This document shows positions 35,445-36,638 of a stretch of DNA of 64,000 nucleotides, piece after piece. Made by a program: the position numbers and the translations under genes. Source of the DNA: Shouchella patagoniensis (lineage in GTDB: Bacteria > Bacillota > Bacilli > Bacillales > Bacillaceae_D); NCBI RefSeq assembly GCF_002019705.1, contig NZ_KV917377.1, forward strand, positions 1,610,565-1,674,564, given 5' to 3'. The notes under the pieces are model-generated. The model did not search any database. It saw nothing but the letters and a program-made list of their open reading frames with translations, and was not told the DNA's origin. Numbering within the stretch: position 1 is the stretch's first letter; each line of letters starts with the position of its first letter.

Positions 35445-35475
35445 AGCACGCTTGTCATAGCTGCTCTATTTTTTT
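35436..35475. terminator. Bidirectional terminator between Rrf2 and kinase-like genes
   Basis: AAAAAATAGAGCA pairs with TGCTCTATTTTTT around a 13-nt loop; T-runs on both strands; it overlaps both stop regions. Confidence 0.88.
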
Positions 35476-36083
35476 ATAGATTGGTATATTTTAGCTACCA
35501 CATTCATTAGCCATCTTGGAACTTTCTTAGGAAAGTAGAAACGATGATAGTGAGTAAGATACCCCTTTTTTAAATCATCCCATTGGGAACAATCTTTCCT
35601 CTGTGAAAAACGTGCAATGTCAATGATGTGCACTTTATTATCCTTAGTTACTAGTAGATTATGCAGATGAACGTCTGATGGATTTAAGCCCTTATTTCTT
35701 GCTGCATTTAAAGCCTCATTTACTTGATTCACATGATTTTCTGTTAATCTCACGCCTTCAATTAAGCATTGGTAAAATGTCTTTCCCTCAATATAATCCA
35801 TAACTATATAGTTTTTACCACTCATATAAACAGAAGGGTAATAAGGTATTCCCTTTACTTTTTTATAATTCCGTGCTTCATCTTGAGCAATATGTTCAAA
35901 TGGAGGATAAAACACTTTTATCGCCATATTCACATCTTTTATTTTAAAAACATAAGCGCTTCTGCCTTTACCAATAAGCACTAATTCTTCAGGAACGTTT
36001 ACCAGGTTTGTTTTTCCACCCTTATTTTCAAAAACAATCTCTGTGACAAATTCGGTGTAGTCTTCTTTTAATTCCACAATCAT
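35466..36083 (-). CDS. Small protein-kinase-like protein (YrzF-like)
   Basis: 205 residues with a reduced kinase fold: glycine loop LIGKGRSAYVFKI (36-48), Lys56 in MAIKVFYPP, a Glu in QDEARNYKKV, hinge YIVMDYIEGKTF, catalytic loop NPSDVHLHNLLV (D137, N142) and metal-binding D155 in IIDIARF. It resembles the small serine/threonine or RIO-like kinases annotated as YrzF in Bacillus; the loop reads DVHLHN rather than HRDLKxxN. Its ATG overlaps the stop of the 41-residue gene upstream (ATGA), so the two are translationally coupled and both lie behind the Mn-riboswitch-like leader. Target unknown. Confidence 0.78.
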   Translation of the reverse strand: MIVELKEDYTEFVTEIVFENKGGKTNLVNVPEELVLIGKGRSAYVFKIKDVNMAIKVFYPPFEHIAQDEARNYKKVKGIPYYPSVYMSGKNYIVMDYIEGKTFYQCLIEGVRLTENHVNQVNEALNAARNKGLNPSDVHLHNLLVTKDNKVHIIDIARFSQRKDCSQWDDLKKGYLTHYHRFYFPKKVPRWLMNVVAKIYQSIKK

Positions 36084-36205
36084 CTCTTCTTCTGTTGCTT
36101 TCGTTTGACCAGTTCTTTTTTCACAAATGGAACAACATGTTTTTGGGCTTGTTTTAGACCTTCACGTATTGCTTTTGATTTCATTAATTTTGTTAACTTT
36201 GACAC
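36080..36205 (-). CDS. 41-residue basic protein coupled to the kinase-like gene
   Basis: Starts at a GTG with AAAGGAGG 8 nt upstream; the longer frame to 36292 runs back into the terminator hairpin and is not credible. The product, MSKLTKLMKSKAIREGLKQA and 21 more residues ending VKKELVKRKQQKKR, has about 15 Lys/Arg and could form an amphipathic helix. The stop overlaps the next start by ATGA. It is the first gene after the riboswitch terminator, 46 bp downstream. I recognise no family; a nucleic-acid, membrane or kinase partner are all possible. Confidence 0.72.
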   Translation of the reverse strand: MSKLTKLMKSKAIREGLKQAQKHVVPFVKKELVKRKQQKKR

Positions 36206-36248
36206 ACAGATTTCCTCCTTTTTCTCAGGTAACTGCGGCAAAAGCTCG

Positions 36249-36289
36249 AAAAAAAACGAGACCTTTGCCCAGTTTGGACAAAGGTCTCG
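36249..36289 (-). terminator. Riboswitch expression platform terminator
   Basis: CGAGACCTTTG, 11-nt loop, CAAAGGTCTCG, then eight T on the minus strand. The 5' arm overlaps the aptamer's closing stem, so the two structures are mutually exclusive. Confidence 0.92.
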
Positions 36290-36378
36290 CAAGCAGCAAA
36301 GATTTGCTGCCAGCAGTGCCGAGGATTTCTCCTGTAATGACGACAGCTGCTTTTATGCTACTCCCCTTTGGGACGTTG
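36257..36378 (-). promoter_or_regulatory. yybP-ykoY (Mn2+) riboswitch candidate
   Basis: On the minus strand the leader reads CCCAAAGGGGAGTAGC near the 5' side and GCGAGACCTTTG at the 3' side, both hallmark segments of the yybP-ykoY element; CAAAGG and CCTTTG form stem P1. Between them lie GTCGTCATTACAGGA with an AGGA-GAAA-TCCT hairpin, CGGCACTGCTGGC (GCAG/CTGC pairing), and a GCAGCAA/TTGCTGC hairpin. The 3' arm of P1 is also the 5' arm of a perfect terminator, the standard on-switch layout where Mn2+ binding prevents termination. I cannot run a covariance search, but the match in order and spacing is strong. Confidence 0.85.
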
Positions 36379-36393
36379 CTTTAATTAATTTTC

Positions 36394-36422
36394 ACTATAA
36401 GCTATTGGATATAAGTATTCAA
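36394..36422 (-). promoter_or_regulatory. Sigma-A promoter of the riboswitch transcript
   Basis: Minus strand TTGAAT (36417-36422), 17 bp, TATAGT (36394-36399). Transcription would start near 36387, a few bases before the aptamer. The rest of the 36423-36638 gap holds no further feature that I can name; AACGATCGTT at 36488 is a short palindrome. Confidence 0.7.
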
Positions 36423-36638
36423 TACAATCCACTCTTTCACACAGACTCTTTACATTGCATTTACAATGTTTGAAATATGTAGGACTTAACGATCGTTCGT
36501 GAATCACAATCATACTGAATGTTTAACAGTATTAATCAACGTATATTTTACTAAGCAATTGCTCATTCACTTCGGAATGTTCAGCTTCTCACCTCTATGC
36601 TAAACTAGATTTACTACCGCAAAAGGGAGACGTGCTAT

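Follow-up and report, generated by a model that had tools for sequence, protein, structure and literature searches.

A minimal, RIO-like protein-kinase-like gene is a recurrent member of the manganese-riboswitch regulon of the Bacillaceae, sharing a transcript with TerC in some genera, and gives a well-known riboswitch class a new kind of output, a kinase. The initial annotation had described a single case, within the 64,000-nucleotide stretch of DNA analysed here (the window), and had proposed that a tiny basic protein and a kinase are induced there by high Mn2+. Our analysis supports this interpretation, and we consider it probable that the locus is a Mn2+-induced two-gene operon whose riboswitch, in the ON state, yields a basic protein and a RIO-like kinase of the manganese response. 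The locus as originally described, with its switch, terminator, small open reading frame (ORF) and kinase-like gene, was confirmed, and comprises the following parts:

36394..36422, minus strand: promoter-like site of the sigma-A type, TTGAAT-17-TATAGT (consensus scan)
36277..36374, minus strand: Mn2+ (yybP-ykoY) riboswitch aptamer (RF00080, model R2, covariation)
36370-36365 pairing with 36284-36279, minus strand: closing helix P1 of the aptamer
36256..36290, minus strand: intrinsic terminator with 16 pairs, a loop of 3 and a T tract; the expression platform, in ON-switch geometry
36220-36214, minus strand: Shine-Dalgarno sequence AAGGAGG of the small ORF
36080..36205, minus strand: ORF of the 41-aa basic protein, with a GTG start at 36205 (homologs in kinase operons)
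35466..36083, minus strand: 205-aa RIO-like minimal protein-kinase-like gene (Pfam, invariant residues, AlphaFold2/Foldseek)

Read along the minus strand, the promoter-like site is followed by the aptamer, the terminator, the Shine-Dalgarno sequence, the 41-codon ORF and the 205-codon ORF, with the two ORFs overlapping in the sequence ATGA. All sequence motifs named by the initial annotation lie on this strand where it had placed them, and the two genes that it had called, a GTG-started basic mini-protein and an ATGA-coupled kinase-like gene, were both borne out at the locus by the ORFs, the Shine-Dalgarno sequence and Pfam. The manganese-dependent enzymes that it had mentioned as lying nearby are likewise present in the window, with nrdI, nrdE, nrdF and a Fe/Mn superoxide dismutase gene located ~20-24 kb from the locus. 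For its promoter, a site was found by consensus scan, and in the nearest relatives the hexamers and their spacing resemble TTGAAT-17-TATAGT when compared by eye, but the hexamers TTGAAT/TATAGT by themselves are at chance level, being about equally frequent in the shuffle control (mean 0.8).

Just above the promoter we noted a motif, GTAAAGA-TCTGTGTGAAA (36427-36453, minus strand), which by eye recurs in several Shouchella and Alkalicoccobacillus loci and is perhaps an activator site providing a second input; the longer motif has a single genome match at up to 3 mismatches. A PhoP-like box in this region was rejected, as the TGTAAA-N5-TGTAAA repeat occurs in just 4 of 20 upstream regions (the window and L035-L037).

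The initial annotation had assigned the aptamer to the yybP-ykoY class and had named the Rfam covariance model as the check on this assignment. By the letter of that test the element fails, with 30.6 bits against the gathering score of 45 bits for RF00080 (release 15), and at curated cut-offs Rfam returns zero matches in the 64-kb window. At a relaxed threshold, however, the element is the clear top RF00080 match of the window (local E 1.5e-6), and genome-wide it is the second of two matches (E 2.5e-6), the first being a 48-bit Mn switch that precedes a gene called TerC by Pfam. The Rfam match depends on search filters, since the same element, as locus L003, was unlisted at E 0.1 in a 12-locus Rfam scan; at this E-value RF00080 lists 10 of the 17 loci of the kinase's own type (L004-L020). 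Switches linked to TerC also fall under the cut-off (34.1 bits in L022 and 28.2 bits in L025), and the Rfam model therefore serves this Bacillaceae group poorly. Given that L003, L022 and L025 are all missed at 45 bits, default annotation probably undercounts the Mn-riboswitch regulon of the Bacillaceae.

Membership in the aptamer family was established with a model (R2) built from 24 sites (23 distinct) located before TerC (16) or Na/Ca-exchanger (8) genes, with zero kinase sites among them. R2 accepts the element clearly: it is the sole match in the 64-kb window at E up to 10, scoring 56.5 bits, and one of two convincing matches genome-wide (E 1.7e-9), behind which the best score drops to 17.5 bits. 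The core columns AGGGGAGUAGC, CGUCA and AGACC are invariant across 41 sequences, and in both alignments AGGGGAGTAGC, CGTCA and AGACC show little or no variation. Across 41 related sites, 97.8% of the cells in the helices are paired and 12 of 24 pairs have both sides changed, giving a covariation score of 0.306 versus 0.146 when shuffled, a value reached by 0 of 500 shuffles; the helix structure came from the same 41-site alignment and was for this reason favoured in the slid control. The RF00080 match, the R2 scores and the covariation together rule out a chance resemblance. The element shares with the RF00080 class its conserved core, P1, covarying helices and a terminator in ON geometry as in Bacillales ykoY, and differs from it in scoring under the Rfam cut-off and in having a small protein and a kinase as its output in place of an exporter or TerC.

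Compared with shuffled versions, the fold of the 153-base leader is better by 7.2 SD, and none of the shuffles (0/200) equals it. The initial annotation had described the terminator as mutually exclusive with the aptamer, and this proved correct: the 5' arm of the terminator contains CCUUUG, the 3' arm of P1, so that the two structures exclude each other. In computed folding the free leader reaches -65.0 kcal/mol, compared with -57.5 kcal/mol when P1 is forced, and the ligand-free leader favours the terminator state. Since P1 competes with this favoured state, a ligand holding P1 would prevent termination. The riboswitch class suggests Mn2+ as the ligand and ON as the direction, and for ykoY of Halalkalibacterium halodurans, whose switch likewise has a terminator, a published study gives ON control by Mn2+ as the prediction (PMC10898510). 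A rise in cytosolic Mn2+ would then lead the yybP-ykoY aptamer to bind the ion and hold its closing helix; with CCUUUG locked in P1, terminator formation would not begin, and transcription would continue into the genes of the 41-aa basic protein and of the kinase.

Judging from sequence and predicted structure, the second gene most probably encodes a minimal protein kinase that is active. Pfam places it above the RIO1 cut-off (28.5 bits; cut-off 22) and under that of Pkinase (25 bits; cut-off 31.7), and among 65 members of the kinase family, Pkinase is matched by 54, ABC1 by 24 and RIO1 by 19 (RIO1 at E 0.01). Residues K56, E69, D137, N142 and D155, together with the glycines of the glycine loop, are invariant in 65/65 sequences, and it is this conservation of catalytic residues that leads us to predict activity; the K/E/D/N/D set is common to protein kinases in general and is not RIO-specific. 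An AlphaFold2 model of the protein (pLDDT 92.4, pTM 0.87) has mostly protein kinases among its best Foldseek matches, the top three being structures of RIO2 from A. fulgidus (PDB 1zar, 1zao and 1tqi; E 5.4e-8 to 1.4e-7), two of which, 1zar and 1zao, were solved with Mn2+. The catalytic D and N and the metal-binding D of RIO2 are present in the window kinase, at an identity of 16-20% and a TM score of ~0.5. RIO2 kinases carry an N-terminal domain, and the window kinase, of just 205 aa, has no domain of this type.

Members of the family match Pkinase, ABC1, APH and WaaY, so that a small-molecule substrate is conceivable, and we considered a version of the operon, otherwise as described, in which the kinase acts on a small molecule or on an envelope lipid or sugar instead of a protein, in the manner of APH-, WaaY- or Kdo-kinase-like enzymes. 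The weak APH (9/65) and WaaY (4/65) matches among the members would fit such a substrate, as would the catalytic loop, which reads D-x-H-x-x-N without HRD, and the envelope-like nature of other Mn-switch genes (BacA/UppP-like and undecaprenyl-phosphate translocase-like). We regard this version as rather unlikely, given that Pkinase is by count the commonest Pfam match, that the window protein itself exceeds the RIO1 cut-off, and that the structural neighbours are mostly protein kinases.

Conservation of the arrangement in relatives, which the initial annotation had left to be searched for, is strong. A model (R1) built from 41 sites, many of which are kinase sites, detected 93 switches over 41 family genomes, with at least one in each genome and two in that of the window. 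Among the 35 kinase hits in these genomes, 24 have a same-strand switch no more than 1.5 kb upstream; kinases of the window's own type (E up to 1.1e-58) have one in 18 of 18 cases, and the 11 hits without a switch all lie outside this type. We then define as named relatives the best 80 of 541 kinase relatives from a scan of genome contigs. In this set R1 finds a strong switch upstream of the kinase at 63 of 80 loci, 33 of the 80 containing a sequence used in R1; R2, none of whose sequences occurs in any of the 80, also finds a switch upstream in 63 of 80, always on the strand of the kinase. Across the order, a switch is listed upstream of at least 23 of 85 kinase hits. A shared neighbourhood was rejected as the cause of this linkage: the flanking genes differ, and those of the window recur within ~4 kb at only 2-4 of the best 80 of 541 relatives (Rrf2 at 4, metallophosphoesterase at 2, metallo-beta-lactamase at 3 and histidine kinase at 4), indicating that the switch-kinase link is not simply an inherited neighbourhood.

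A clear switch is missing at 17 of the 80 loci, and the kinase therefore seems to do without switch control in some species. The window kinase and YrzF of B. subtilis are probably of the same family, a likeness drawn from what we take to be a similar size and a gene position near ruvA; in the Bacillus altitudinis group (L106 and L113), homologs lie near ruvA/ruvB without a switch, unlike the window kinase. YrzF is listed with PrkC, PrkD and YabT as a Hanks-type kinase (PMC12747378). The switch-less loci would fit a housekeeping YrzF-type kinase over which a mobile switch has gained control at other loci, with manganese control being incidental. Such an origin appears improbable, as the switch is kept at 63 of the best 80 of 541 loci despite changing neighbours, and the genes between switch and kinase vary (none recognised, a small ORF, FbpB-like with Spo0M-like, DUF6376, or TerC), from which it follows that the link survives rearrangement.

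Several loci in these sets carry unusual switch arrangements. Two have weak Mn riboswitches before the kinase that are apparently decaying (L062:3822-3907, 21.3 bits; L063:3839-3922, 26.4 bits), and by eye the core of the L063 switch looks lost with its terminator hairpin kept. The other 15 of the best 80 of 541 have no convincing switch, including L064 and L089, for which only ~300 and ~975 bases are available upstream. In Sutcliffiella halmapala a second Mn riboswitch lies ~1.1 kb behind the kinase (L059:5725-5825), and in a further genome two matches ~415 bases apart on one strand may form a tandem (G059:C3:427024-427120 and 427535-427631). A plasmid search with the kinase returned 8 records, every one at <60% identity.

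We searched the 63 switch-kinase operons among the best 80 of 541 relatives for seven intervening genes (E up to 0.05). None of the seven lies between switch and kinase in 22 of these operons, and in 20 the small basic ORF is there alone; a DUF6376 lipoprotein gene intervenes in 9, of which 7 also have a small basic ORF, and an FbpB-like basic ORF with a Spo0M-like gene in 7. TerC lies between switch and kinase in 5 of the 63 by this lax search, mostly with further genes, and L049, L068, L085 and L086 are clear cases of a kinase behind TerC under one switch. In the family set, too, TerC precedes the kinase at four loci (L021, L022, L025 and L026; 68-70% identity), where the switch is 1.2-1.5 kb upstream of the kinase.

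The small protein of the window, with 41 residues and a net charge of +13, is unnamed by Pfam and NCBIfam. Its homologs occur in 17 of the 41 family genomes (E 4.6e-19 to 3.9e-6), always in the kinase operon, with another gene between small ORF and kinase in G018; one extra weak match was found in G002 (E 0.097). Of the 13 genomes of the genus that were searched, 12 have the kinase, and all 12 have the small ORF beside it. The protein or a shorter relative occurs in 27 of the 63 switch-kinase operons of named relatives (among the best 80 of 541), and it is also present in Geomicrobium, Oceanobacillus, Gracilibacillus, Alkalicoccobacillus and Halalkalibacter. When the window is compared with its nearest relative, 13 codons of the ORF differ, 6 of them synonymously, and in 9 of 9 ungapped comparisons changes are more numerous at third than at second codon positions, a substitution pattern by which the ORF looks like a real gene.

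The order of the genes and their coupling suggest that the small protein is most likely a partner of the kinase: encoded just before it and joined by ATGA, it could serve as an activator, adaptor or tether. It is missing from many switch-kinase operons and is therefore not generally needed by the kinase. An amphipathic helix was considered and rejected, as the helical moment of four members does not stand out clearly from that of shuffled sequences (171, 60, 356 and 1121 of 2000 have a moment as high), and we accordingly claim no membrane role. MntS is a small protein of the E. coli manganese regulon that is switched off by manganese. Likened by description only, the two have in common that they are tiny proteins in a manganese regulon, and they differ in that the small ORF of the window is expected to be switched on by the metal.

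Within the Mn2+-induced operon that we favour, the kinase would most likely phosphorylate one or a few manganese-response proteins. Because it shares transcripts with TerC in other genera, the process that it may most plausibly tune is metalation and efflux of the TerC/MeeY type. A broader proposal, which we advance tentatively and hold to be somewhat less likely than its negation, is that the Bacillaceae possess a conserved manganese-triggered phosphorylation branch, into which RIO-like and, in Halalkalibacter-group genomes, Hanks-type kinases were recruited with a common layout of riboswitch, basic peptide and kinase, in which Mn2+ would elicit protein phosphorylation alongside TerC, and in which the peptide, often present, would be the partner of the kinase. 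Through the recurrent link to a Mn switch, a signal can be predicted for a class of bacterial kinases that has been little studied, and Mn2+ becomes a condition under which phosphorylation may be sought. Manganese homeostasis may thereby gain a signalling arm, and the link suggests that phosphorylation has been overlooked in the manganese response of relatives of Bacillus. The literature consulted presents Mn2+ riboswitches as regulators of exporters and TerC proteins. Full-text searches, in the titles and abstract openings of the matches listed, gave no published link from yybP-ykoY to a kinase, the founding 2015 papers being outside their scope.

The Mn-riboswitch regulon of the family also extends past exporters (L145-L212). 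We collected 69 family switch sites without the kinase (68 fetched, the 69th being L001) and called the genes behind them with a simple script, which called no gene behind the switch in L185. Clustered and named by the Pfam match of one member each, the proteins behind these switches include TerC (34 proteins) and Na/Ca exchangers (21 proteins), with further clusters of undecaprenyl-phosphate translocase-like, Spo0M, AI-2E transporter, DUF1232, CNNM, BacA/UppP-like and DUF6376 proteins and of small basic ORFs. The Na/Ca-exchanger cluster, and a pneumococcal yybP-ykoY switch reported to bind Ca2+ too (PMC9495176), could suggest that the aptamer is a relative of yybP-ykoY adapted to a different cation such as Ca2+, with the operon belonging to a different metal response, which we consider the least probable reading of all, as the core columns vary little or not at all in the two alignments, the second switch of the window's genome precedes TerC, and TerC and the kinase are cotranscribed elsewhere.

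Among these sites, two genomes of the Halalkalibacter group have a Mn2+ riboswitch followed by a 57-aa basic ORF rich in Tyr, Ser and Lys and then by a full Hanks-type kinase, 259 aa long in one genome and 262 aa in the other (L153:242-1203, plus strand; L160:2943-3910, minus strand). This kinase differs from that of the window and stands in the same arrangement, and in G015, a third genome, a copy lies in two pieces.
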